Shown: one piece after another, positions 1 through 10,280 of the stretch
How the letters are laid out: each line of letters starts with the position of its first letter
How positions within the stretch are numbered: the first letter of the stretch is position 1
NCBI GenBank assembly: GCA_013698525.1
Contig: JACCSM010000385.1
Span: 1 to 10,280 of the forward strand
From: Rubrobacteraceae bacterium
GTDB lineage: Bacteria > Actinomycetota > Rubrobacteria > Rubrobacterales > Rubrobacteraceae
Reading direction: 5' to 3'
DNA length: 10,280 nt
Notes under the pieces: model-generated
Database searches by the model: none
Seen by the model: only the letters and a program-made list of their open reading frames with translations
Told to the model about the DNA's origin: nothing
Position numbers and translations under genes: made by a program

Positions 1-110
1 CGCAGGAACTCCCGCCGGCTCATGCGGCCGGCTCGCCGCTCCTCGTACAGGTGGTATGCGTAATCGTTCACGTCCCTTTCCAAGGTCTTTCCCTTTCCCT
101 GAGTACCCAT
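1..110 (-). CDS. Tat-exported protein, 5' end only (probable ABC-transporter substrate-binding protein)
   Basis: An ATG at 108-110 opens a frame that runs without a stop to the window edge (36 codons). The visible protein begins MGTQGKGKTLERDVNDYAYH and continues through a basic stretch to MSRREFLR. SRREFL is a twin-arginine (Tat) export signal; the hydrophobic core would follow outside the window. The arrangement of about 30 hydrophilic residues and then MSRREFL is common in actinobacterial solute-binding proteins of oligopeptide or polyamine ABC transporters. The start lies 23 bases downstream of the M20 peptidase stop on the same strand, so co-transcription is likely and fits peptide import. 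No strong ribosome site is visible. The Tat signal is seen directly; the transporter role is inferred from context. Confidence 0.6.
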   Translation of the reverse strand, partial: MGTQGKGKTLERDVNDYAYHLYEERRAGRMSRREFL

Positions 111-133
111 AACTATCTCACATCAGCGGCTTT

Positions 134-1453
134 CTAGTCTTCTCCACAGAAGCGCAGGGCAGCGATCGCTAGGGCTTGTGCTCCGTGGACGAGGCTATCG
201 ATCGGTACATGCTCGTCGATAGCGTGAGCAAACCTACCGTCACCCGGGCCGAAACAGATCGAGGGCGTACCGGAGTGCGTGAATGTGGCGCCGTCGACCC
301 AGCCGGTGCCCGCAAGTTGCCCGGGCCGACCGATATCTGCGCCAGCGGCGAGCATGGTGTAGACGATTGGTTCCTCTGCAGAGATTTCGGCGGCCGGGAC
401 CCCGCCGGCCGCCCACTCTATCATTGGTGGTTTTTCTGCTAGCCAGGCGTCTGCCTTGGCCGCGCGCTCGATCAGGTCGACGATCTCGGCTTGGACAGCG
501 GTGCCCCAGCCATCCTCATCGGCTTGCGCCGGCAGGTAGCCGACGTGGTAGGAGAGGCGGCAGGAAGAAGGATAGCTGACTACCCACTCCCCGCCAGAGA
601 TCTCGGTCGTGATGATGTGACCTGGTGAGAGGTACGGATGCTGATACTCGGGCCGCCCGTGCCACTTCTCCTGGAGGCGGTCGAGCGCCTTACGGATAAC
701 GTCGGCCTTATCGATCGCGTTGACCGCGCCCCCGGTCCTCCAGTGCGGCTGCTCGACGCTAACGTGACCCGACCGACCCGGGACGGTGATCGTCGGCAAG
801 AGGGAGCCACTGCAGGCGATCGCGACGTCGAAAGAAGTGGACTCCGTTACGATGGCGGCGTCGGCGCTCACGCCATGGTTGACCGCTGCGACCCCGCCGG
901 CACCCGTAGACTCCTCGTCCGTGACCGTGCAGACGACGAGGTCGCCCGCGAGCCGCAAGCCAAGAGAGGCCAAAACCTCGGCGGCGAAGACCATCGTGGC
1001 AATGCCGCCCTTCATGTCAACGGCGCCGCGTCCGTAGAGGCTACCCCCGCGTACCTGGGCTTGGAAGGGGTCGCTCGTCCACTCTTCGCGAGGGTCCACC
1101 GGGACCACATCGATGTGGCCGTTGAGGAGGAGGCTTCGACCACCTCCTGCCCCAGGGAACCGGGCCACCATCTGAGGACGGCCGTCGAAGCGAAGGCCGG
1201 GAGGGACGAGCCGACTCCCGGCCACGTCTTCGGGTGTTGGTTCCCACGCCTCAGTCTTGGCGCCAGCCGCGCGCAGACGCTCGGCCAGGTACTCTTGGAG
1301 ATCAGCCTCCTCGCGGGGAGGATCCTCGAGATCGCGGGAGATCGTGTCATAGCCGATCAGATCGGTAGCTAGGGCTACTAGCTCGTCGCGGCGCCGCTCG
1401 ATCTCCTCGGTTACTAGCCTTTCACTCTCCGTCAAGCTCACGTCGTTTCCCAC
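134..1453 (-). CDS. M20-family metallopeptidase/deacylase (ArgE/DapE/CPG2-like)
   Basis: A 439-aa zinc hydrolase of the M20 clan, the group that includes acetylornithine deacetylase, succinyl-diaminopimelate desuccinylase and carboxypeptidase G2. The metal site looks complete: H113 and D115 in NGHIDVVPVD, bridging D146 in GRGAVDMKGG, catalytic E180 and ligand E181 in TDEESTGAGG, E204 in VTESTS, and H410 in GRFAHAIDEH. The dimerisation (lid) domain lies between, at about residues 215-335. There is no signal peptide, so it should be cytoplasmic. The chosen GTG start follows AGAGGAA closely; a second in-frame GTG four codons later is possible. The substrate cannot be read from sequence. The neighbouring Tat-exported protein and M24-fold protein suggest use of imported peptides or N-acyl amino acids. 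Confidence 0.9.
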   Translation of the reverse strand: MGNDVSLTESERLVTEEIERRRDELVALATDLIGYDTISRDLEDPPREEADLQEYLAERLRAAGAKTEAWEPTPEDVAGSRLVPPGLRFDGRPQMVARFPGAGGGRSLLLNGHIDVVPVDPREEWTSDPFQAQVRGGSLYGRGAVDMKGGIATMVFAAEVLASLGLRLAGDLVVCTVTDEESTGAGGVAAVNHGVSADAAIVTESTSFDVAIACSGSLLPTITVPGRSGHVSVEQPHWRTGGAVNAIDKADVIRKALDRLQEKWHGRPEYQHPYLSPGHIITTEISGGEWVVSYPSSCRLSYHVGYLPAQADEDGWGTAVQAEIVDLIERAAKADAWLAEKPPMIEWAAGGVPAAEISAEEPIVYTMLAAGADIGRPGQLAGTGWVDGATFTHSGTPSICFGPGDGRFAHAIDEHVPIDSLVHGAQALAIAALRFCGED

Positions 1454-1741
1454 TTCCTCTGAATCGCAACTCTTACAGCTTCTCGGGGGGATGTGGTAAC
1501 GATACCGGGGGCTCCCGGCGCCTTGGTGCCACGGTGGCGCTTGGTTGGGACAGACTTCCCCAAGGAACCGGGGACGCGGATGGAACCAGCACCCGGACAG
1601 CGACTAGGAGCTGGGTAATGGCACTGAGCCACGGCCTCCTCAGCAGGAACCGGCCCATGGCCCTTTGGTGTCTCCCCCAAAACCAATCACTGCGACACCA
1701 AACAGGCCTCGTAGTTTATCCCTTTCATTGTGAGAAGTATG
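1454..1741. other. Intergenic stretch, no gene recognised
   Basis: Short frames exist on both strands (minus 1438-1686 and 1473-1658; plus 1534-1821), but none has a convincing ribosome site or a protein I recognise. The stretch lies next to a decayed IS630 transposase and may hold further scrambled insertion-sequence DNA. It should also contain the promoter of the M20 peptidase gene, but I see no clear -35/-10 pair. Confidence 0.4.
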
Positions 1742-2088
1742 TCATGCGTAGAAAATCCGTGCAACAGGAGTCGCTACATAGGCACCCATCGTCACCGTAC
1801 CATCTACGTGGCCTAGGATAGCGCTGCCACCCAGGAAGACGACGAGCTCCAAGCGGTCGTGCGCGCGGCGGCGGGCCGTTTGGTGTTGCTGTGCTGGCTG
1901 ATCTACATCCCGTGGCTGAACCCCATCGAGATGCTCTGGCGGCACTTTCGGCGCGAGGCGACCATTGCGAGCCGTCTCCGAACATAAAAGCTCTGGTTGC
2001 GGTGGCCTACGATTTCTTCGAGTGCCATAACCGACGACCTCACGATGTTCTCTCGCTGATCGGCTCTCATGATCCAGGAATTCCGTGA
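1742..2088 (+). pseudogene. IS630-family transposase, C-terminal remnant
   Basis: The C-terminal part of an IS630-type (Tc1/mariner-like DDE) transposase survives in pieces. In the frame starting at 1781 it reads GTHRHRTIYVA, a TAG stop at 1814-1816, then DSAATQEDDELQ, which matches the second-aspartate region (usually ..LDNAS..). It continues to WLNPIEMLWRHFRREA, the hallmark (P-W-LNPIE-W) before the third catalytic acid. At about 1961-1965 the reading switches by one base: an apparent single-base deletion turns the expected T-H-C-E into another frame, which continues as HCEPSPNIKALVAVAYDFFECHNRRPHDVLSLIGSHD to the TGA at 2086-2088. The N-terminal domain and first aspartate are not seen. With an in-frame stop and a frameshift it cannot make an active transposase. 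The 5' limit is approximate. It separates the M20 and M24 genes. Confidence 0.8.
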
Positions 2089-2194
2089 CTGTACTTAGCT
2101 CTTCACTTTAGCCACTCCCTAAGCGAGTACACTGCCCGGTCGGCGTCCTTCCTAAGCTCACAATTCTTACTCAATCCATCAGATGCTCCTGTCG

Positions 2195-3598
2195 TCAAAG
2201 ACGAACGTAGACGTGGTCATGATCGAGCCAGAAGGGTGGGAGGTATGCCGGTGATGAGGAAAGCGGCAGCAACCCGTCGGCCACTCGGATACCGATTTCG
2301 TCGCGCATGAAACGTTGCCGCGACACAATGCGTTCCCACACATCCGGGTACCTATTAGCTAGCTCGCTCCGCAGATCTGCATCAGCTATCACTACGGGAT
2401 CCTCGCAATTCAAAGCACGCCCAGGACCTGCGGGGGTAGGGATGATGTCGCACTGATAGGCCATACCCGAAGCTATGGGTACGGTTCCATTTTTCACGAT
2501 AGGGCTGTTAACCCATTCGTCGAGATGGGTGAGGTGTCCCGGATTTAACATCGAGCGGAAGCTAGTTGGGGCAAGCGTGTTTTCGACCGCCTCGGACACT
2601 TCGCCACCCTTTGTTCCGATATCCACCGTTTCATACCAAGCAGCGATGGCCCGGAAGTAGGGAGCTCCCAGCTCTCGTGTAAAGTCGGGATCATCGCCGG
2701 AACGCAGAATACCGGCGCGACATCCGAGCCCTCCCCAGTATCCGATGGCAGCGGTGACGGCGTCCCTCTCTCGTATCGTACGGGCTGTTGGACTGCGAAG
2801 ACCTACAATCTCTCCGTTTCCGGAGGCGAACATGACGTGCGCCGAGAGCGGCTCGCCCTGATATCCCATGCGCGAGCTTGCCTCTAGCTCGGTCATTCCC
2901 GGGCGCGTTCCCGCAACGATCCGCATAACGGCTCGGGTAGCTCGCGAGGCCGCCCATTCGAAGGCAGCGATCTGGTCTGCACAGGCGCGGGAACGGAGGC
3001 CGTGCTCTGGATCCAACAGTGCTAAGGTTATGTCCTCGACCGTTCCCTCACTAGAGACGAGATCACGGAGTGAATCTAAGAGAAAAGCCGGGACCGCGAT
3101 GCCCGGAGACGAGCCTTCCCACTCCTCCTCCGAAAAGTACTTCCAGCCCACGACGCCGACCCGATCGCCGGAACCTATCCCCATGTCAGCCAAGCACTGG
3201 CGCAGCGAGGGTGAGTTCGATCGATCCTGGCCCATGAGGCTGAGCGATTGGCATAGGACTATGTCGAGGCGAGGCACGACGACTACGGAACTGTACCCGA
3301 GCCCTTCATTACCGACGAGCAGACAGCGAACGTCACCCGGCCCCAGCACGAGAACGGCCTCCTCGAAACGGGGGTCAAAGCATGTTAGATACGCGAGATT
3401 AGCAAAGTGCTCGCGGTCCCCATAAACGACGATCCACTCGGTTCCCGCGGACGCCCTTAGCGCGTCGATCCGATTCTCATACTCGGCCTCCGGTAATTCG
3501 GGTCGTTTATCCGGAACACCGAAGTCGGGAAGTGGCAGAGGGCGCAAAGAGACGCCGGATTCTCCGATCGATTGGGACGATTTTTGCGTATCACTCAT
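2195..3598 (-). CDS. M24-fold (creatinase/Xaa-Pro peptidase-like) protein, probable metal-site-less homologue
   Basis: A 467-aa protein whose layout follows creatinase/aminopeptidase P: an N-terminal creatinase-like domain (about 35-190, with EYENRIDALR and WIVVYGDREHFANLAYLT) and a C-terminal pita-bread domain (about 205-467). Active M24 enzymes carry five ligands (D, D, H, E, E). Where the two aspartates are expected, the sequence reads AAIGYWGGLGCRAGI (283-297) with no acid. The histidine region is NPGHLTHLDEW (352-362). The first glutamate position reads GMAYQCDIIP with D384. The last region is RDEIGIRVADGLL (432-444). Catalysis by the standard two-metal mechanism therefore looks unlikely; this comes from reading by eye without an alignment. 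The ATG start has an AAGGAG ribosome site (complement of 3607-3612) eight bases upstream. That site lies exactly at the left edge of an IS110 element, so the native upstream region is now about 1.4 kb away. Confidence 0.75.
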   Translation of the reverse strand: MSDTQKSSQSIGESGVSLRPLPLPDFGVPDKRPELPEAEYENRIDALRASAGTEWIVVYGDREHFANLAYLTCFDPRFEEAVLVLGPGDVRCLLVGNEGLGYSSVVVVPRLDIVLCQSLSLMGQDRSNSPSLRQCLADMGIGSGDRVGVVGWKYFSEEEWEGSSPGIAVPAFLLDSLRDLVSSEGTVEDITLALLDPEHGLRSRACADQIAAFEWAASRATRAVMRIVAGTRPGMTELEASSRMGYQGEPLSAHVMFASGNGEIVGLRSPTARTIRERDAVTAAIGYWGGLGCRAGILRSGDDPDFTRELGAPYFRAIAAWYETVDIGTKGGEVSEAVENTLAPTSFRSMLNPGHLTHLDEWVNSPIVKNGTVPIASGMAYQCDIIPTPAGPGRALNCEDPVVIADADLRSELANRYPDVWERIVSRQRFMRDEIGIRVADGLLPLSSSPAYLPPFWLDHDHVYVRL

Positions 3599-3607
3599 AC
3601 GTTATGC

Positions 3608-3617
3608 TCCTTATCTT
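3608..3617 (+). promoter_or_regulatory. IS110 left end with -10 half of the circle-junction promoter
   Basis: TATCTT at 3612-3617 matches the -10 consensus at four of six positions. In the integrated form no -35 is paired with it. In a circular intermediate, the right-end TTGACA would be placed exactly 17 bp upstream. Confidence 0.6.
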
Positions 3618-3623
3618 TGTGTT

Positions 3624-3800
3624 TGTCGTTCAGGTACAGTTTCTGGATGACGCCCAAGGGGGCCGAGGATGGCTCGTTTTGCTCTGCCGTCCGATGGCTT
3701 GAAAGGAATCGCCCCTCGGCCCCACCGGAGGCTCCGACCGCTCATAGAGATCGGCGAAGTCCATGAAGACTCGCTGCATAAGGAGCCGTCGGCGGAGTAC
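3624..3800 (+). ncRNA. IS110 bridge RNA (seekRNA)
   Basis: This is the guide RNA that lets an IS110 recombinase pair donor ends with target DNA. Three structural units can be folded by eye. (a) 5' stem-loop: 3625-3633 with 3643-3651, loop 3634-3642. (b) Target-binding loop: outer stem 3659-3668/3714-3723 (ten pairs), inner GGC/GCC, tip hairpin 3686-3690/3694-3698. (c) Donor-binding loop: outer stem 3734-3738/3788-3792, tip hairpin 3754-3761/3768-3774 with one bulged A. The guides fall in the internal loops. Left target guide 3675-3684 equals left flank 3600-3609 at 9 of 10 bases. Right target guide 3701-3710 is the reverse complement of 5039-5048 (10/10). Left donor guide 3742-3751 equals right end 5032-5041 (10/10). 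Right donor guide 3778-3786 is the reverse complement of 3606-3614 (9/9). The predicted start is about 3624; the 3' end is approximate. Confidence 0.85.
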
Positions 3801-3844
3801 TCCACGGGCGAGCTATCGCTGGCAACCGAGGCACGGAGGTGACC

Positions 3845-5026
3845 ATGGACAGCAAGAAGGTGTGGGTTGGCATCGACGCCGGCAAGGAGGCCCACTGGGC
3901 TCACGTGCTCGACGCTTCGGGGATGAAGATCCTCTCCCGAAGGGTCGAGAACGACGAGGCCGACCTCTCGGGGCTCATCGACGAGGTGCTCGCCCTCTCT
4001 GAGGAGCCCCTCTGGGCCGTCGACCAGCCCGGGGGCAGCGCGGCGCTGCTTCTGGCGCTTTTGTGGGAGAGAGATCAGCGGGTCCTCTACCTCCCGGGCC
4101 TGGCCGTGGAGCGTGCGCGCGAGGCCTACCCCGGGGAGTCCAAGACCGATGCTCGTGACGCCTACGTCATCGCCGACCAGGTCCGGATGAGGTCCAACCT
4201 CGCTCGGCTCGTTCCCGGCGAAGACGATCTCGCTGAGCTGCAACTCTTGCTCGCCCGTCGGAGGGACCTCGTCGCCGACCGGACCAGGTGCGTCAACCGT
4301 CTCAGGGACGTCCTCCTTTCCCTCTTCCCGGCCCTGGAGCGCGCGCTGGACCTGAACGCCAAGGGCGCCCTCATCCTGGTGAGCCACTACCAGACCCCAG
4401 GCGCCATTCGCCGTGTGGGCCACAGGCGCCTTGCCGCCTTCCTCAAGAACCGCGGCGTCAAGGGGGCCGAGGTGATCGCCCAGAAGGCCATCACCGCGGC
4501 CAAGGCCCAGAGCGTCTCCCTGCCCGCACAAAGCGTCGCCGCCACGATCTGCGCCGAGCTCGCCCAAGAGACGCTCGCCCTCAAGGAGAGCGTAGCCGCC
4601 CTCGACGGGGAGATAGCGGGCCGTTTTTTCGCCCGTCCCGAGGCTCGGATCCTCTCTAGCCTGCCAGGCATGGGTCCGATCCTCGGTTCCGAGTTCTTGG
4701 TGAGCGTCGGAGAGCTCTCCGCCTTCGAGAGCGCCGACCAACTCGCCGCCTACGCCGGCCTGGTGCCGGCCGCCCACGACTCCGGAAAGAGGGTCGGCAA
4801 CCATCGCAGGATGCGCGGGGGCAACAAGGTCCTCAAGAGGGTCTTCTACCAGTCGGCGTTTGCCAGCTTGCGCTCCTCGCCCCACTCCAGGGCCTACTAC
4901 GACCGAAAGAGAAGGGAGGGCAAGAAGCACACCCAGGCCCTGATCGCCTTGGCTCGCCGGAGGGTCAACGTCCTGTGGGCGATGCTGCGCGACGAGACCA
5001 CCTTCGAGGTCCCGCCTGCAGCTTGA
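3845..5026 (+). CDS. IS110-family transposase (DEDD recombinase)
   Basis: A 393-aa RNA-guided serine recombinase of IS110 elements. The N-terminal RuvC-like domain (about 4-160) shows D11 in VGIDAGKEAHW, D60 in WAVDQPGG (glutamate in many relatives), and D102 and D105 in SKTDARDAYVIA. A coiled-coil-like middle follows at about 205-262. The C-terminal Tnp domain (about 265-375) contains the helix-hairpin-helix LPGMGPILGSEF and the serine-recombinase motif AAHDSGKRVGNHRRMRGGNK with likely nucleophile S313. I chose ATG 3845 because GGAGG (3835-3839) lies five bases upstream; the GTG at 3839 overlaps that site. No frameshift or stop interrupts the gene, and with its bridge RNA and both ends present the element looks capable of movement. 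Confidence 0.95.
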   Translation: MDSKKVWVGIDAGKEAHWAHVLDASGMKILSRRVENDEADLSGLIDEVLALSEEPLWAVDQPGGSAALLLALLWERDQRVLYLPGLAVERAREAYPGESKTDARDAYVIADQVRMRSNLARLVPGEDDLAELQLLLARRRDLVADRTRCVNRLRDVLLSLFPALERALDLNAKGALILVSHYQTPGAIRRVGHRRLAAFLKNRGVKGAEVIAQKAITAAKAQSVSLPAQSVAATICAELAQETLALKESVAALDGEIAGRFFARPEARILSSLPGMGPILGSEFLVSVGELSAFESADQLAAYAGLVPAAHDSGKRVGNHRRMRGGNKVLKRVFYQSAFASLRSSPHSRAYYDRKRREGKKHTQALIALARRRVNVLWAMLRDETTFEVPPAA

Positions 5027-5041
5027 CATTTTCATAGAGAT
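5023..5041 (+). promoter_or_regulatory. IS110 right end with outward -35 (TTGACA)
   Basis: A perfect TTGACA at 5023-5028 overlaps the transposase stop and points out of the element. It is followed by TCATAGAGAT at 5032-5041, the segment copied in the bridge RNA donor loop. In the integrated form no good -10 lies 16-18 bases further on. After circularisation the left-end TATCTT completes a promoter. Confidence 0.65.
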
Positions 5042-5121
5042 TCCTTTCTACGGTTATTTGTGTCAGCCTCAGTACATAGCTGTTGCCAGTGAAGCGAAGC
5101 CGATAGGCGAACCCAAAAGGT

Positions 5122-5439
5122 TCAGCCGTCCAACAGGTCCACAGGCATCTCGTTGCCGCTCTCGATTCTCCCCGGCGTCATCAACGTCTCCAAGATGCGC
5201 TCGTGGGTAGCGCGGTGCCCCACCTGGTCGGGATGCGCCGAGACGGCGTGCACGGGGCTTCCTGAAACAGTGTAGAGGTATTGCGCTCCTGCGTAACGCA
5301 CCATCGCCTCGATGCCGCCGCCGTCCGGGGTTAGGCGGGTCAGCAGCTCGAGCTCGCCGGTAATCGCCCCCACCTCCTCGGTCATCACGCCGCCCGTGGT
5401 GGAGCTAAACGAAGACCAATTAGTCTCGGCAACGCTCAC
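5122..5439 (-). CDS. Hypothetical protein, 105 aa
   Basis: Not recognised. The protein is acidic and soluble-looking, with no signal peptide or membrane segment. It begins MSVAETNWSSFSSTTGG, has a central MVRYAGAQYLYTVSGSPVHAVSAHPDQ that could form a small beta-sheet unit, and ends EMPVDLLDG. The GTG start lies one base after the TGA of the upstream HNH-type remnant, so translation is probably coupled to it or once was. Its stop is 73 bases from the point where the IS110 element interrupted the leader of the M24 gene. Before that insertion, this gene and the M24 gene were neighbours on the same strand and could have been co-transcribed. The coding assignment rests on length, frame and this tight junction. 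Confidence 0.5.
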   Translation of the reverse strand: MSVAETNWSSFSSTTGGVMTEEVGAITGELELLTRLTPDGGGIEAMVRYAGAQYLYTVSGSPVHAVSAHPDQVGHRATHERILETLMTPGRIESGNEMPVDLLDG

Positions 5440-5440
5440 G

Positions 5441-5680
5441 TCAGTCCGCCTTGCACGTCGCCAGCATGTCGTTGAGTGCCGTCTTCTCGTTGGGGTTGAC
5501 GCTGAGATCCCATTCCGACTTTATCCAGATCCAGCGCCTCGCATACTCGCACCAGTAGTCGCGGTTCGGTATATGTGTTGTTGCTCGCCTCCCAACTCTT
5601 GTCCCCGTCATGAGCGACAAACTGGTCACCCACTCAAGTGCCTCCAGCCACTGGGCTTCGCCCTCCCACGAGCACCGCTC
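5441..5680 (-). pseudogene. HNH endonuclease/DUF1524-type protein, C-terminal remnant
   Basis: The last 40 or so residues (PNRDYWCEYARRWIWIKSEW then DLSVNPNEKTALNDMLATC) resemble the C-terminus of actinobacterial HNH-family (DUF1524/GmrSD-like) proteins, where ..YxCxYAxxWIxVKxxWxLSVxxxEKxALxxML..C is typical. Upstream in the same frame (THIPNRDYW and before) the resemblance is lost. The neighbouring frame reads HDGDKSWEASNNTYTEP, which looks like the expected ..GDK.. segment, so a frameshift near 5560-5575 is likely. The catalytic D-x-D-H segment is absent. What remains is too short to be a nuclease. The 5' limit is approximate. Recognition is from memory of the family's C-terminal pattern. 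Confidence 0.55.
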
Positions 5681-5774
5681 CGTGCCCCGAATTCACGATT
5701 TCCGCCTTCATGTTACCGGATCGATCAGCCTGAGGAGACCCATGCAGGTTAAGCGCGCAGCTTCAAGCAGCGCT

Positions 5775-5796
5775 GAGTGGTATCAGAGTGGTATCA
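5775..5796 (+). repeat. Tandem direct repeat, 11 bp x 2
   Basis: GAGTGGTATCA occurs twice without a gap, 5775-5785 and 5786-5796, just left of a strong hairpin and about 70 bp from a tRNA-Thr fragment. Paired 10-11-bp repeats near an att core are typical of integrase arm-type binding sites. Confidence 0.6.
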
Positions 5797-5797
5797 G

Positions 5798-5826
5798 AAT
5801 CCCCTCGGTGCGACGCCGAGGGGATT
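5798..5826. terminator. Perfect 11-bp inverted repeat, possible terminator
   Basis: AATCCCCTCGG (5798-5808) and CCGAGGGGATT (5816-5826) form a perfect stem with a 7-nt loop that can close further by one pair. There is no long T-run after it; on either strand the stem itself ends AATT-like. It may be a bidirectional terminator or a structured part of the attachment region. Confidence 0.45.
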
Positions 5827-5864
5827 AACCTTGCAGACTATTCGGCTTATCTAAGCCAATTGGT

Positions 5865-5910
5865 GAGAGCCGACGAGCGGACTCGAACCGCTGACCTGCT
5901 CATTACGAGT
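5865..5910 (-). repeat. tRNA-Thr(CGT) 3'-half fragment, left att-like repeat
   Basis: Read on the minus strand, this gives the anticodon loop CTCGTAA (anticodon CGT), the 3' anticodon stem TGAGC, variable loop, T-arm AGCGG-TTCGAGT-CCGCT, acceptor strand CGTCGGC and discriminator T, ending at 5868. The 5' half (acceptor 5' strand, D-arm) is missing; unrelated DNA follows to the right. This is the signature of an attachment core left by a tyrosine-recombinase element. The copy at 10019-10064 is identical except for two adjacent bases (5892-5893). Confidence 0.85.
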
Positions 5911-6309
5911 GTGCGGTCGGTGGTTGCTGGGCATTGCAGGGGTTTGCGAATCTGGCATAGGAAACGGGTTTTCTGTGCCCTCGATTGCCCGGTATTGCAG
6001 AGTGTTGCGTGCGGGTTAGGGTCAAACTAGGGTCAAGTGGTGTCAGTACGCGGCGGGTTACAGGTGTCCGGTTTCTTTACAGTCCACAATCGCAACTACT
6101 ACGAGTCTAACGGTGTCTGACGTAAAGTACGGTCTCATCTCTGCTAGCCTCCACGCTGCTGGGAGCGATAGACGAGGAAATCGGCAGCCTTGGTCGGGCG
6201 CCCTATTCTCTCAGCTCATTCCCACGTGGTTACAGGAGGTTAGCGTCACTCCCCCTCCGCGCACTGGCAAAAATAGGAAGACGCGAAGCCTCGAAGAGGT
6301 CCCAACGCT
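5911..6309. other. Non-coding end of the tRNA-bounded segment, with arm-site-like repeats
   Basis: I support no gene here. TAGGGTCAA occurs at 6017-6025 and again at 6028-6036 (11-bp period). Related GCATTGCAGGGG, GTATTGCAGAG and GTGTTGCGTG motifs lie at 5931-6010. This fits integrase arm-type sites inside an element end. A plus-strand frame at 6113-6394 overlaps the next gene antiparallel and looks spurious. Confidence 0.45.
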
Positions 6310-6672
6310 TCAACCCCTCAGGGACGCGAACCTCTCGTGCAGAAACGCGTGGTACTCCTCGCGCACGGCCGCGCCTTCGGCCCACTCCAGGTAGTGCCCC
6401 AGCCATGAGTCGCGGGCCTCTGCGCCCCCCAACTCGCGCAAGTGGGCTGGCCTTTGGGCCTCGCGGTCGGCTAGCAGGCCAGCCTGCCACTGGGCGGCCT
6501 TCTCGTGTCGATGGAAACCGTCAGCAAGCTCGCCCAGTCGGCTGCCGGCAGGGGTCTTAAGCACCTCTGCAAACGCGTCCTCGAAGGTATGCCCCGTCCT
6601 CTCCGAGACCGCCTCGGCCTGTCTGGCCAGCGACTCCACCACCATCTCGGATACGGTCTGCTCTGCTCTCAA
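6310..6672 (-). CDS. Hypothetical protein, 120 aa
   Basis: Not recognised by family. The protein looks alpha-helical and charged (MVVESLARQAEAVSERTGHT then FEDAFAEVLKTPAGSRLGEL) and is rich in Glu, Ala and Arg, with no signal peptide or membrane segment. The C-terminus (YLEWAEGAAVREEYHAFLHERFASLRG) also looks helical. A strong ribosome site (AAGGAGGAGGAG) lies just upstream of a TTG start at 6670-6672; the first ATG would be ten codons later, too far from that site. It is separated from the upstream gene pair by about 110 bases. Codon use and the strong ribosome site support a real gene; the function is unknown. Confidence 0.65.
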   Translation of the reverse strand: MRAEQTVSEMVVESLARQAEAVSERTGHTFEDAFAEVLKTPAGSRLGELADGFHRHEKAAQWQAGLLADREAQRPAHLRELGGAEARDSWLGHYLEWAEGAAVREEYHAFLHERFASLRG

Positions 6673-6782
6673 GCTCTCCTCCTCCTTCTGAAAGCTCGTT
6701 CCAGGCGCGGCATTCTACGCCCGCATAGGCTAATTCTCATGAGTGTGCGTCAACGGATCGCTAGGTTTGGAGACCACCTCAA

Positions 6783-7034
6783 TTAGGCTCTTCTGTAAAT
6801 AGTGCGCGGTCGGCGCTCACTTGGCGCCCCATCGGGGGTCTCGTCCCTCAGCTGGTAGTGCCAGAACAAATGGGGGCCCCCGCCGTCTAGGACCACCTCG
6901 TGGGCCGCGTGGTCCGGATGGCCGAAGCTCTGCGTGATCGTGCCGGACAAGCCCTGCAACTCATCCGGCACAGAGTCGAGCTCGCGCAACCTCACCTTCG
7001 CGCCGATGCGGCCTTCCGATGTCGGATGGATCAT
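6783..7034 (-). CDS. Small SH3-like barrel protein (B), 83 aa
   Basis: Not assignable to a named family. The core GRIGAKVRLRE...LSGTITQSFG....HEVVLDGGGPHLFWHYQL has the rhythm of a small five-strand SH3/KOW-like barrel: a G-x-[KR]-V-R start, a central G-T-I strand, and a final L-F-W-x-x-x-L strand. It aligns by eye over most of its length with the protein encoded immediately upstream (7036-7266), so the two appear to be tandem paralogues. The ATG lies one base after the stop of that gene, with the G-rich end of that gene as ribosome site, so the pair is translationally coupled. It is cytoplasmic and acidic to neutral. The fold assignment is inference from pattern only. Confidence 0.65.
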   Translation of the reverse strand: MIHPTSEGRIGAKVRLRELDSVPDELQGLSGTITQSFGHPDHAAHEVVLDGGGPHLFWHYQLRDETPDGAPSERRPRTIYRRA

Positions 7035-7035
7035 G

Positions 7036-7266
7036 CTAGCCCCCCTCGAACATCGAACGCCACCAAGTCCGCGGTGGAGAAATCTCTTTTAGGTCCGCCG
7101 GCCAGAACAGCCTCCGCCGGCCATCAGAGAGCTGTACGTCTACAGCAACATGCTCGCGCCCCCCGTAGCGGCCCATGATCTTGCCCACGGCCTCTCGCCG
7201 GGACTCAACCCTGTGGTCCCCTCGCACCCTCACCCTTGTGCCGACGCGTATCTCGTCAAAGCCCAC
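7036..7266 (-). CDS. Small SH3-like barrel protein (A), 76 aa
   Basis: This is a paralogue of the following gene. IRVGTRVRVRG...AVGKIMGRYGGREHVAVDVQLSDGRRRLFWPADL matches the other copy at the G-x-R/K-V-R-V/L-R start, the central glycine-isoleucine strand, the H-V/A-A..V-x-L strand and the closing LFW...L. It is very basic in the middle (RGDHRVESRREAVGK), which could suit nucleic-acid binding; this is inference. The start is GTG 7264-7266 with a weak GGGGTGG upstream. It is the first gene of a two-gene unit. A 20-codon frame with a strong ribosome site lies just upstream (7256-7318) and overlaps this start by 11 bases. Confidence 0.6.
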   Translation of the reverse strand: MGFDEIRVGTRVRVRGDHRVESRREAVGKIMGRYGGREHVAVDVQLSDGRRRLFWPADLKEISPPRTWWRSMFEGG

Positions 7267-7788
7267 GACCTAACCACCCCTTCCCGTTGGCGCACCTACG
7301 CGCTACCGCGCGACTCACATACTCCTTTACCTCCTCAGGCAAGCTGAGGAGAGTGTGGCTTCTAGGCTAGAGGGGAAACGGGCAGAAGTCGATGGGACAT
7401 AAGTCCTAGACGCATATGTGTCATCCCAGACCTAGCTTATCGGCGGGTTCCAAGGCCGGGGGTCTTCAGATGAGGTGCTTCCGCACCTTGCTGAAAATCG
7501 CCCACTTGTTGCTAGTCTCCAGATGGTGGCAGTGGCACAGCGAACCTACACATATGCTTTATATCCTTTCCCCAGCTCGCCTCGAAGCCTAATCAGGCTT
7601 GAGCGGGAGTCGTAAGAACAATTGCCTATCATTGGGTGACGTGGATATTCTGTTTCCGAGAACATCCTCGATGACAAGATCTCAAAAATGTGTTCTGTCA
7701 CGGCTGTGGCGTTGCCGAATGGGTGGTATTCTGCTACTGCTTCAGAGGTGAGTTCTGCGATGTGCGAGATAAAGGCAGCAGGGTAGCT
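7267..7788. other. Intergenic region between divergent genes, with palindromes
   Basis: This region should hold the promoters of the minus-strand small-gene unit and of the plus-strand kinase. It contains a perfect 8-bp stem (CTCCTCAG 7331-7338 with CTGAGGAG 7344-7351) and GGGACATAAGTCCT at 7394-7407, a near-palindrome of the kind bound by NarL/DosR-type regulators. A minus-strand frame at 7546-8166 overlaps the kinase and is its shadow. I see no clear -35/-10 pair. Confidence 0.4.
7394..7407. promoter_or_regulatory. DosR/NarL-type operator-like palindrome
   Basis: GGGACATAAGTCCT agrees with the DosR-box core GGGACTWWAGTCCC at 12 of 14 positions. It lies about 130 bases from the minus-strand unit start and about 380 from the kinase start. 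A NarL-type regulator is encoded 1.5 kb away. Binding is inferred from the match alone. Confidence 0.35.
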
Positions 7789-8859
7789 ATGCGGCAACCA
7801 GTACCAGAAGAGATCAATCAGGTACATCAGGCTGGATCGACCCTGCACGATGGCGAATTGCATTTCCGTCGGTTGCTGGAAAAGCTGCCCGCCGGGGCGT
7901 ACACCTGCGATCCCGAAGGATTGATCACCTATTTTAACCAGCATGCGGTGCGACTGTGGGGGCGCGCGCCGAAGCTGAACGATCCCGTGGACCGCTTCTG
8001 CGGCTCCTTTAAGCTTTTTGCGGTAGATGGATCCCCGATCGCTCACAACCAATGTTGGATGGCGCTCGCGCTCGAGTCGAACGAAGGGTACAACAAGCGC
8101 GAGATCGTCATCGAGCGCCCGGGCGGCGAGCGTCTGAGCGCCCTGGCCCACGCTAATCCCATCCACGACGAGTCGGGCAACCTCATCGGGGCGGTGAATG
8201 TGCTGGTAGACATAACCGAGCGCAAACGCGCCGAAGAAGAACTACGAATGGTGCGGGAGGCTGAGCGCAGCCGGATAGCCCGCGATCTGCACGATGGGGT
8301 GTTGCAAGACCTCGCGGCCGTCGTGCAAGGGCTGGAAGCCGCCCGCATGGAGCAGAAAACACGGTTTGAGGGATATGATACCGATCTCCATCGAGAGATC
8401 GATACCCTAAGGCAAGCCGCTTCGAAGTTGCGCCGGGCCGTCTACGATCTGCGTTCGGAGAAACCCCCACCGTTTCTTCAGGCCATTGAATCTCTAGTGG
8501 AGGTCAACCTTCAGCGGGCTCCCGAGTGCGAGGTAAAACTTGAGGTCCAAGACGACTTCCCGCACGAGATTCCTGACGAGACGGGTAGGGAGCTGCTTAG
8601 GATCGTCCAAGAAGCTCTCACCAATGCCAGGTGCCACTCCGAGGCGCGCAACGTCCGCATCGGTTTGGAAGTAGAAGGAGCCGACTCCTTGGTGGTGGAG
8701 GTAGCCGACGACGGGCTGGGCTTCAACCCCGCATCGGCGGATAGCGGGGTGGGCATTGAAGGAATGCGCGAGCGGGTGTCTTTGCTAGGGGGGGATATGG
8801 CGATCCGCTCCGAGATTGGTAAGAGGACGTTGGTACGCGTCAGGGTGCCATGCCCTTGA
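7789..8859 (+). CDS. PAS-domain sensor histidine kinase, NarL/DegS type (HisKA_3)
   Basis: A cytoplasmic kinase of 356 aa from the chosen ATG. A PAS domain spans about 26-145 (LLEKLPAGAYTCDPEGLITY to GAVNVLVDITERKRAEEEL). The HisKA_3 dimerisation helix carries phospho-acceptor H168 in ARDLHDGVLQDL. The HATPase domain (about 265-355) has an N-box around N279 (EALTNARCHSEAR), a D-x-G box DDGLGF (307-312) and GVGIEGMRERVSLLGG. There is no transmembrane segment, so the signal must be intracellular or a bound cofactor. The frame is open back to an ATG at 7690, but the extra 33 residues are cysteine-rich and unlike a PAS lead-in, while AGGG precedes the 7789 ATG. A NarL-type regulator lies convergently 52 bases downstream and is the obvious partner. 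Confidence 0.88.
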   Translation: MRQPVPEEINQVHQAGSTLHDGELHFRRLLEKLPAGAYTCDPEGLITYFNQHAVRLWGRAPKLNDPVDRFCGSFKLFAVDGSPIAHNQCWMALALESNEGYNKREIVIERPGGERLSALAHANPIHDESGNLIGAVNVLVDITERKRAEEELRMVREAERSRIARDLHDGVLQDLAAVVQGLEAARMEQKTRFEGYDTDLHREIDTLRQAASKLRRAVYDLRSEKPPPFLQAIESLVEVNLQRAPECEVKLEVQDDFPHEIPDETGRELLRIVQEALTNARCHSEARNVRIGLEVEGADSLVVEVADDGLGFNPASADSGVGIEGMRERVSLLGGDMAIRSEIGKRTLVRVRVPCP

Positions 8860-8911
8860 TCCCTGCGTGAGCAACAAGCCGTAGATAGCGTAGAGGAGGA
8901 TCGGGGTTGCG

Positions 8912-9583
8912 TTAGGGAAGCTCCGGTTGCTCGATGTCCACAAGACCACGACGAACGGCGTAGATGACGGCCTGGGTCCTGTCGAAGATGTGCAACTTCC
9001 TGTAGATGTTGGAGGCATGGTTGCGAACCGTCTTCTCCGAGATGCCCAGATCGCGCGCTATCTCCTTGTTGCTCTTGCCCTGAGCCAGCGCCTTTATCAC
9101 CTCGAGCTCTCGCTCGGTGAGGCTCGGAGCGAGCTCAGTGCTTGAGCGAATGCCCTCGAAGGTCGTCATCGTCTTCTTCGCGATATCAGGAGACATGATG
9201 GTGTCTCCGGCATGGACGGCCTTTATCGCGCTCGCGAGATCTTCCGGGGCGCAATCCTTCAGGATGTACCCCTGCGCGCCGGCCTTAATCGCTTGAAAGA
9301 GGTTGATGTCATCGGTGTGGACGGTCAGGACCAGGACCTGTGTCCTTGGCAAAAGACTGAGAATCTTTCGAGTCGCCCTGATGCCACCCATCCCCGGCAT
9401 AGAGAGGTCCATAAGCACGACGTCGGGCTCCTCCCTCAGACACATCTCCACGGCCTCCTCGCCCGTGTGCGCCCTACCCACCACTTCCACGTCACGTTGG
9501 ATGCTGAGGATCCTGACAAGACCGTCGACGAAAAGTCGCTGATCGTCGACGATCGTTACCTTAATCACACCCTCTTCACGCAA
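8912..9583 (-). CDS. NarL/FixJ-family response regulator
   Basis: A 223-aa two-domain regulator. The receiver (about 7-125) has acidic pocket D13/D14, phospho-acceptor D59 in VVLMDLSMPGMGG, T89 and K111 (GYILKD). After a linker, a LuxR-type helix-turn-helix (about 155-215) reads LTERELEVIKALAQGKSNKE then IARDLGISEKTVRNH, with the recognition helix at the end. Phosphorylation, most likely by the adjacent kinase, should promote dimerisation and binding to palindromic sites. The TTG start (9581-9583) follows GGGGAGAAGAGG; an in-frame GTG five codons later is too close to a purine site to be preferred. The gene is convergent with its presumed kinase and not co-transcribed with it. No obvious terminator is visible in the 52-bp gap. 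Confidence 0.92.
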   Translation of the reverse strand: MREEGVIKVTIVDDQRLFVDGLVRILSIQRDVEVVGRAHTGEEAVEMCLREEPDVVLMDLSMPGMGGIRATRKILSLLPRTQVLVLTVHTDDINLFQAIKAGAQGYILKDCAPEDLASAIKAVHAGDTIMSPDIAKKTMTTFEGIRSSTELAPSLTERELEVIKALAQGKSNKEIARDLGISEKTVRNHASNIYRKLHIFDRTQAVIYAVRRGLVDIEQPELP

Positions 9584-10018
9584 TGTCCTCTTCTCCCCTG
9601 CCTTTGTCGTGGCGCCTCACTGCTAGGGTATCGTGCCACGCCTGCACATCCAAATCGAGGATAGCATCTCATACAGCGGCGACGGGAAATACCAATCGAT
9701 GTGGTAACGACAGTCTCGGTGCTTATCAGGAGAGAAGTTCGGGACAAAATACCTACAGAACTGCAGCCCCATGTCCCATAGAGTACTCCCAACATCACGG
9801 GCACAGGGCTTCTCTACCCCCTCCGAAGCTCCAAGGCCCGGCACAGCACATCGGGCCGAGCCTTCGGCTCAGCTCTAAGCTCGTGCATCCGGTGCCCGCT
9901 TTTTCGAGGTGATAGGTGGGAAAGGGAAAGGAGGAGTCGGGCACCGGATCAGCTTCCCTATTCTTACAGTACTCTTATGATTAATGCCAGCATTCTTACT
10001 GCAAATGGACGCTTTTTG
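9584..10018. other. Non-coding stretch with inverted repeat, no gene supported
   Basis: It should contain the promoter of the response-regulator gene. Frames on both strands (for example minus 9623-9844) have no ribosome site or recognisable product. The stretch holds a GAGCC-TTC-GGCTC hairpin (9858-9870) and a 12-bp perfect inverted repeat around a purine-rich tract. Confidence 0.4.
9887..9949. repeat. 12-bp perfect inverted repeat around a purine-rich spacer
   Basis: ATCCGGTGCCCG (9887-9898) and CGGGCACCGGAT (9938-9949) are exact reverse complements separated by 39 bases. The spacer carries the purine tract GTGGGAAAGGGAAAGGAGG (about 9917-9935). It lies 70 bp left of the second tRNA fragment. 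Confidence 0.6.
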
Positions 10019-10064
10019 GAGAGCCGACGAGCGGACTCGAACCGCCCACCTGCTCATTACGAGT
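10019..10064 (-). repeat. tRNA-Thr(CGT) 3'-half fragment, right att-like repeat
   Basis: This is the second copy of the 46-bp tRNA-Thr 3' half in the same orientation as 5865-5910, with 44 of 46 bases identical. It runs from the anticodon loop to three bases past the tRNA end. The 5' half is again missing; unrelated DNA with tandem repeats follows to the right. Confidence 0.85.
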
Positions 10065-10280
10065 TTGCTTGAGCACGTTCTAACCCGTCCTGGGGCGTCC
10101 GTAAATTGCGCTTGTTTAGGCGGTTTTCGACGATCTGGGGGAGTTGCTTTGTTCATTCCGTACCAGTGCGTACCAGCCCGGTTGCAGTACGGTTGCAGTA
10201 CACTCTCGCAAGGGCTCGGTTAGGGAACGTAGCTTCACTGGTGCACCTTCTGAGGGTGGGTCTTAGGATCTTAGGCTCCC
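10065..10280. other. Non-coding DNA with tandem repeats beside the tRNA fragment
   Basis: GTACCAG occurs at 10160-10166 and 10170-10176. GGTTGCAGTAC occurs twice without a gap at 10180-10190 and 10191-10201. No gene is supported. The pattern fits integrase arm-type sites of a further element extending beyond the window. Confidence 0.5.

Follow-up and report, generated by a model that had tools for sequence, protein, structure and literature searches.

How does an insertion sequence (IS) of the IS110 family find the place in which it lands? The question is raised by a DNA stretch of 10,280 nucleotides (nt) from Rubrobacteraceae bacterium (GenBank assembly GCA_013698525.1, contig JACCSM010000385.1, positions 1 to 10,280 of the forward strand; hereafter the window), in which positions 3608-5041 read as an intact IS110-family element with the core dinucleotide TC. 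A preliminary description had proposed that the left end of this element encodes a bridge RNA, and had assigned four guides to it. A bridge-RNA-guided IS110-family insertion sequence is the best explanation of this locus and, judged by its sequence, very probably the right one. The predicted RNA belongs to a known kind of system, and the view that its decoding was correct is well supported by the comparisons described below.

Element, core and guides

The positions of the element, its ends and its predicted guides are as follows; L002 denotes a paralogue of the element in the same genome.

3608..5041, plus strand: IS110-family element, 1434 base pairs (bp) with one copy of the TC core counted (from the guide matches and the L002 junctions)
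3608..3609, plus strand: left copy of the core dinucleotide TC (from comparison with L002 and blind decoding)
5042..5043, plus strand: right copy of the core dinucleotide TC (from comparison with L002 and blind decoding)
3600..3607, plus strand: left target (flank), CGTTATGC; with the core 9/10 against 3675-3684
5044..5048, plus strand: right target (flank), CTTTC (from the guide match)
3610..3614, plus strand: right donor (left end), CTTAT (from the guide match)
5032..5041, plus strand: left donor (right end), TCATAGAGAT (from the guide match)
3620..3815, plus strand: predicted bridge RNA, given as the stretch used for folding; 5' end deduced from the -10 box, 3' end approximate
3675..3684, plus strand: predicted left target guide, 9/10 against 3600-3609
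3701..3710, plus strand: predicted right target guide, GAAAGGA (Shine-Dalgarno-like) with the handshake bases ATC, 10/10 against the reverse complement of 5039-5048
3742..3751, plus strand: predicted left donor guide, core not included, 10/10 against 5032-5041
3778..3786, plus strand: predicted right donor guide, ATAAGGA with GC, 9/9 against the reverse complement of 3606-3614
3839..5026, plus strand: IS110 recombinase of 395 residues with the domains DEDD_Tnp_IS110 and Transposase_20 (from Pfam, NCBIfam and homology to solved structures)

All four matches between guides and DNA partners were found where the preliminary description had placed them, and their order and strand (left target, right target, left donor, right donor) are canonical. 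The same ends and guides came out best (35/36, core TC) in a blind search that received only the open reading frame (ORF) and varied both the end positions and the placement of the guides. Exact words of at least 7 nt that the RNA region shares with the two ends comprise the last three guides, one extra 7-mer and self-identity; the left target guide is missing among them because its mismatch splits the match. Chance was estimated from 20,000 dinucleotide shuffles of 3620-3838, which were searched with 9-nt queries regardless of guide order. A left target guide of 8/9 or better arose at a rate of 0.013, and 9/9 matches arose at rates of 0.00095 (right target), 0.0006 (left donor) and 0.00075 (right donor). 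All four guides jointly were present in none of the 20,000 shuffles. Blind decoding of 75 loci gave 26 with a score of at least 32. Three of the 26 are the window and its two re-fetched copies, and a few others duplicate one another; with shuffled RNA of the same loci, this score was reached in 1/225 runs (maximum 32). The weaker loci among the 75 overlap the shuffle scores and are not confidently decoded.

Both junctions of the window have TCCTT in common. The core was set to TC because the L002 junctions share TC alone. The other dinucleotides within TCCTT (CC, CT and TT) were rejected as cores, with blind scores of at most 31 against 35 and with the L002 comparison speaking for TC only. The non-coding ends are unequal: the left end is long, with 231 bp before the ORF, and the right end is short, with 15 bp after it. 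No terminal inverted pair was present among the window repeats of at least 12 nt.

The recombinase matches NCBIfam model NF033542 with 243 bits (cut-off 140) and the Pfam families PF01548 and PF02371 of DEDD recombinases. Its similarity to the solved recombinases of IS621 and ISCro4 is clear in the C-terminal domain, which contains the serine region, and weak over the TDxxDA motif. In addition, the C-terminal half (ORF 3839-5026) gave a sub-threshold match to a TIGR-Tas endonuclease model (30 bits, cut-off 100). The nearest relatives of the element with named records occur in metagenome-assembled genomes of Rubrobacter (L034, L035). L035 decodes as L007 and L006 as L034, and these are apparently the same records. 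A search of viral contigs returned six stretches, with no relative of the element among them.

Fold and covariation of the predicted RNA

Two hairpins are predicted in the left end.

3658..3724, plus strand: target-binding hairpin; outer stem 3658-3673/3711-3724, tip stem 3686-3689/3695-3698
3728..3802, plus strand: donor-binding hairpin; outer stem 3728-3741/3788-3802, tip stem 3754-3757/3771-3774

In the window sequence, the conserved stems leave 3674-3685 and 3699-3710 unpaired in the target loop, and 3742-3753 and 3775-3787 unpaired in the donor loop. The two stem-loops hold first the target guides and then the donor guides in internal loops and in fixed order, the arrangement that marks a bridge RNA. 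Folded by itself, the window RNA has a minimum-energy structure with a z-score of -3.3, in which some bases of the left target guide pair with some of the right target guide.

For covariation, 30 of 40 candidate left ends were aligned; the ten omitted were mostly near-duplicates, and eight further entries (copies of the window or the paralogue, and doubtful decodes) had been excluded before alignment. RNAalifold gave a structure of 39 pairs, 16 of them with two-sided changes, from which a weak 5' stem of four pairs was removed before scoring. Over the remaining 35 stem pairs in the 30 left ends, 96.7% of the cells are paired. Two-sided changes were counted in 14 pairs, compared with 9.5 +/- 1.5 in shuffles, and in 73 cells; for cells, shuffles gave 20.5 +/- 4.0 and slid controls no more than 11. 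Folding and covariance had been proposed as a check of the preliminary description, which it passed in that the stems covary and the guide stretches fall in both internal loops. Of the outer stems and tip hairpins claimed there, the outer stems carry the covariation, and both tip stems are without any two-sided change.

An exact 14-nt direct repeat, CAAGGGGGCCGAGG, lies at 3655-3668 and 4459-4472; through it, sequence of the target hairpin's outer stem is found again within the recombinase gene.

Guides and flanks in the paralogue and in the family

The paralogue L002 (contig C631) is 73% identical to the element at the DNA level and has nearly the same donor loop, with wholly different flanks. 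Its left target guide, TGCAAACCTC, equals its left flank (9/9); on the right side, target guide and flank are complementary (9/9). L002 reads as a case of natural guide switching, in which both target guides have changed along with both flanks. More generally, L002, L005, L007 and L034 resemble the element in fold, core, promoter and, a few bases apart, donor loop, with recombinase identities of 70-81%, but have other target guides and sites. L005 is an exception in that it has its right target guide in common with the window and is located at another GAAAGGAGC site.

To avoid circularity, guides and flanks were compared across the family with ends defined solely by promoter motif, donor guides and shared core. 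From 99 full-length loci, 64 obtained ends, and these hold 45 distinct target loops, window and paralogue included. The left target guides of the 45 elements fit their own flanks with 6.11/7 and the flanks of other elements with the same core with 4.96/7. On the right side (five target bases and two core bases) the values were 6.09/7 and 4.83/7. None of 20,000 permutations within core groups reached the observed fit, the highest permuted mean being 5.4 for left and right alike. This figure, like the binomial ones, overstates certainty, since related elements do not count as independent. The family sets also contain a few odd cores (TG, GT, CA), which are probably misplaced ends. In one Streptomyces genome, six copies (L041, L042, L044, L045, L047, L091) each match the left target with 9/9, and their right targets are looser; four of them share 16 bases of left flank, which leaves three distinct left contexts. 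The expectation that guides and flanks agree in other copies was thus borne out, by the joint switch in L002 and by these six copies.

Besides the non-independence of related elements, several points weigh against a bridge-RNA-guided element. The case is built from sequence inference throughout, and the left target guide has one mismatch. Rfam gave no match in the window, with no model above its gathering score. The genome holds one full copy of the element, together with the 73% paralogue and a 48-base fragment. The gene next to which the element landed (2195-3598) had no relative in 59 other related genomes searched, and no empty site was found there. In the flank test, the 35/99 full-length loci without ends by the motif rule were left out. 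Finally, two relatives at Shine-Dalgarno-like sites fit their flanks incompletely: L005 with 4/7 on the left and 7/7 on the right, and L007 with 5/7 on both sides.

Junction promoter and handshake bases

Two boxes at opposite ends of the element would be brought together by excision.

5023..5028, plus strand: -35 box TTGACA, overlapping the recombinase stop codon
3612..3617, plus strand: -10 box TATCTT, 17 nt from the -35 box only once the ends are joined in a circle

The excised circle would form a sigma-70-like promoter, TTGACA-17-TATCTT, that reads into the RNA. TTGAC is present at the equivalent distance, within one base, in 32 of 42 distinct junctions; of the others, eight lack it (mostly with doubtful ends), L084 has it displaced and L011 carries TTGAA. 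A junction promoter was published for IS621 circles (PMC11208160, available text), with which the window agrees. A local promoter scan of the window was uninformative, being blind to a promoter that is split by the element. Neither this promoter nor the Shine-Dalgarno target treated below had been noticed in the preliminary description.

Handshake guides of IS621 are two bases per loop whose pairing partners are positions 6-7 of the other DNA, according to the available text of PMC11208158. The corresponding bases were counted in 64 elements, any element with a guide below 5/7 being dropped; 31 of them have the core TC and 29 the core GC. The bases behind the right target guide agree with donor positions 7 and 6 in 57/64 and 55/64, and with their own target in 14 and 10. 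The right-target handshake is a family trait, and the proposed extension of this guide into the element end is conserved accordingly. For the right donor guide, the following bases match the target in 14/64 and 15/64, about the quarter expected; by core, the counts are 9/31 and 12/31 for TC, and 4/29 and 2/29 for GC. These bases match their own donor in 3/64 and 0/64. The proposed right-donor handshake is present in the window, and also in L005; as a feature of the family it was rejected. Family-wide, it is mainly avoidance of pairing with the own donor. It has been published that own-donor pairing of these bases blocks exchange, and the avoidance agrees with this.

That the left donor guide does not include the TC core had been named as a weak point. 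The observation is correct but no flaw, as it is typical of TC-core relatives, whose left donor guides match the first core base in 4/31 cases and the second in 11/31. In GC-core elements, the values are 26/29 and 2/29. The left donor guide of IS621 pairs up to position 8 only (PMC11208158, available text).

A ribosome-binding site as landing site

The target of the element belongs to a gene on the opposite strand.

2195..3598, minus strand: host gene, 467 residues; the target is its ribosome-binding site, and the uninserted strand reads GAAAGGAGCATAACGT-ATG

The element lies antisense, between the ribosome-binding site and the ATG of this 467-codon gene, and its predicted right target guide spells the Shine-Dalgarno (SD) sequence of the gene. 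Because the left end starts with TC-CTTAT, TAAGGAG precedes the start codon of the host gene after insertion. Relatives of the host protein, with 34-46% identity, were found in 4 genomes of 396 searched (its own excluded). They align from residue 38 or later, so that the exact start is supported mainly by the ribosome-binding site. The protein had no match in Pfam or NCBIfam and no credible match among solved structures.

Whether such a location recurs was counted in 66 distinct sites, 47/127 loci without motif-defined ends being left out. A site was scored as an SD-start site when an ATG or GTG lay 0-14 nt from the core, with an SD word and an ORF of at least 90 codons. In antisense orientation this was the case for 13/66 sites, against an expected 1.4 to 1.8, and in sense orientation for 0/66. 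Random positions in the same loci gave 561/25,932 (2.2%), and core-matched positions 108/3,960 (2.7%). The right target guide contains an SD word in 11/13 SD-type and 9/53 other sites, and the left target guide contains CAT in 8/13 and 3/53; guides were placed by the best target match, and these counts are thus not independent of the site. On a recombinase tree, built by a quick method without bootstrap and holding 59/66 sites and 11/13 SD cases, the SD-start label changes eight times, with at least seven changes forced by starred branches. The label is somewhat clustered (16/500 shuffles were as low).

The signal is often restored after insertion. Among 17 hand-picked SD-like sites (12 of the 13 strict ones, L151 being omitted, and five looser ones), TAAGGA or better stands before the host start in 11, six of them among the 12 strict sites. 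L007 keeps GGAGG, and 5/17 are left with a weaker SD word. We infer that target guides that spell a translation start signal would give the element a recurrent and mild landing site. The literature searched, with subscription papers and preprints outside the search, held nothing on a bridge RNA of an IS110 element that is aimed at an SD sequence.

Alternatively, the SD-start location might be incidental: one particular sequence would be targeted, and the family excess would come from a few related lineages. As many as 53/66 sites fail the strict test, and of the closest decoded relatives (L005, L034, L115, L007 and L002) only L007 passes; L005 has an SD sequence and an ATG with an ORF of 81 codons. 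Near-duplicates occur among the cases (L116/L127 and L154/L156), and the label is somewhat clustered on the tree. However, an excess of this size with all cases in the same orientation, the number of label changes on the tree and the enrichment of SD words and CAT in the guides, with the site-dependent placement just mentioned, argue against it, and we regard an incidental location as rather unlikely.

Stop codons as a second kind of target

In a clade of Streptomyces elements with a GC core, the complement of a TGA stop codon lies in the left target. At 14 sites with an upstream open frame of at least 60 codons, the right end of the element supplies an in-frame TAA at the replaced codon (GCTTCCTAATG, once GCTTCCTAATA).

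Stop-codon sites (14): L036, L039, L040, L042, L044, L046, L048, L049, L051, L052, L053, L056, L091, L100

Third codon positions are the most GC-rich in 11/14 of these sites, as real genes would show. A wider test found 19 antisense and 4 sense cases among the 66 sites, with 5/19 of another kind. Those stop-codon sites that are present in the recombinase tree form part of one clade. This apparent stop-codon programme is weaker than the SD result because the 14 sites are closely related and GC-rich DNA commonly contains long open frames.

Taken together, it is conceivable, if somewhat less than probable, that in this actinobacterial IS110 clade the target guides have repeatedly been programmed with generic gene grammar, antisense to the host, and not with unique addresses. 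The grammar might, at a similarly tentative level, be the SD sequence and start codon in some lineages and the last codons with the TGA stop in another. Equally tentatively, the element ends may be matched to it, rebuilding TAAGGA or supplying an in-frame TAA, so that the host gene is spared. On this reading, the element of the window would be an SD-programmed example. The reading is weakened by the fact that the SD sequence is rebuilt at only part of the sites.

An antisense reading frame across the element

A second alternative takes the captured signal as the purpose of the landing site: as in the hed gene of IS900, ribosome-binding sites would be entered to express an element-long antisense ORF from the captured host signal.

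3611..5035, minus strand: candidate hed-like antisense ORF, 474 codons, spanning the element from end to end; its ATG follows the captured SD sequence at a distance of 6 nt

The ATG of this frame stands 6 nt behind the captured GAAAGGA, and its stop codon (TAA) lies at the left end and overlaps the regenerated TAAGGAG. Element-long frames are also present in L005 (473 codons) and in L007 and L035 (479), and frames of 480 codons that end in the host flank occur in L040, L046, L051, L052, L053, L056, L072, L073 and L074. An element-long antisense ORF is described for IS900 in the available text of PMC8141618. Against this, the frame is broken in L002 and L034, among others, and has only 11 codons in the SD-targeting L071, L081, L086 and L089. 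It mirrors the recombinase codons, so that only TTA, CTA and TCA, which are rare in GC-rich DNA, interrupt it, and the part in the left end of the window would be open by chance in about 15%. Its product has no NCBIfam match. Synonymous shuffling was uninformative, as every result was 0 or 1 with a frame that mirrors codons. Expression of a hed-like product as the reason for the landing site is improbable.

The weakest alternative, in which the 5' non-coding region is merely structured, the flank matches are coincidence or remnants of local duplication and the target is chosen by protein-DNA contacts, can point to the shortness of single guide matches (9-10 nt) and to the mismatched left target base, but it is largely refuted by the shuffles, none of which held all four guides, and by the covariation of guides with flanks in L002 and across 45 elements, and is very improbable.

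Proposed mechanism and significance

By sequence and comparison, the left end encodes a two-hairpin RNA, with guides for the target halves in the first loop and guides for the element ends in the second. The further course is suggested by IS621. The recombinase would bind this RNA, and the target CGTTATGC-TC-CTTTC and the donor TCATAGAGAT-TC-CTTAT would pair with it. Top strands would be cut beside the TC core and exchanged, aided by the additional ATC in the right target guide, and strand exchange would insert the circle.

The window adds a fully decoded candidate bridge RNA from an actinobacterium, with a TC core, a longer right target guide and a contiguous right donor guide, that may help to broaden the rule set of programmable bridge recombinases. 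The family counts separate the two handshakes into one conserved pairing and one that is mainly avoidance of the own donor. The target logic was previously unnoticed and deserves a wider test. Outside the element, the region 7690-9583 encodes a PAS histidine kinase (HisKA_3, plus strand) and, facing it, a LuxR-type response regulator (minus strand).

Comparison with known systems

The recombinase is homologous to those of IS621 and ISCro4. IS621 resembles the element in its bridge RNA from a long left end, two loops, guide order, 7+2+5 layout, junction promoter and right-target handshake. According to the available text of PMC11208158, it differs in its core, which is CT with a nearly invariant T at position 9 and not TC, in a left donor guide that reaches position 8 where that of the window stops before the core, in a shorter right target guide, and in a right donor guide with two bases flipped out, which is contiguous in the window. 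The seekRNA of ISEc21 and ISEc11 is likewise an RNA from a non-coding region that guides a DEDD transposase, with a promoter at the circle junction (PMC11187229, available text), but in ISEc11 the RNA lies downstream of the transposase gene and the targets are others.

A close parallel to the landing site is IS900 of Mycobacterium avium subsp. paratuberculosis, an IS110-family element of 1451 bp with an element-long antisense ORF. IS900 inserts antisense, and work by Doran from 1997 is said to have found that it targets translation initiation signals. The insertion in the window, antisense between ribosome-binding site and start codon, is an IS900-like site. The IS900 target motif CATGNNNNNNTCTCCTT (PMC8141618, available text) and the window site CATACGTTATGCTCCTT have the same spacing and agree in 9/11 specified bases. 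The start codon is not spelled by the guides of the window. The predicted bridge RNA of the window offers a testable, RNA-guided explanation for the entry of IS900 into translation start signals.

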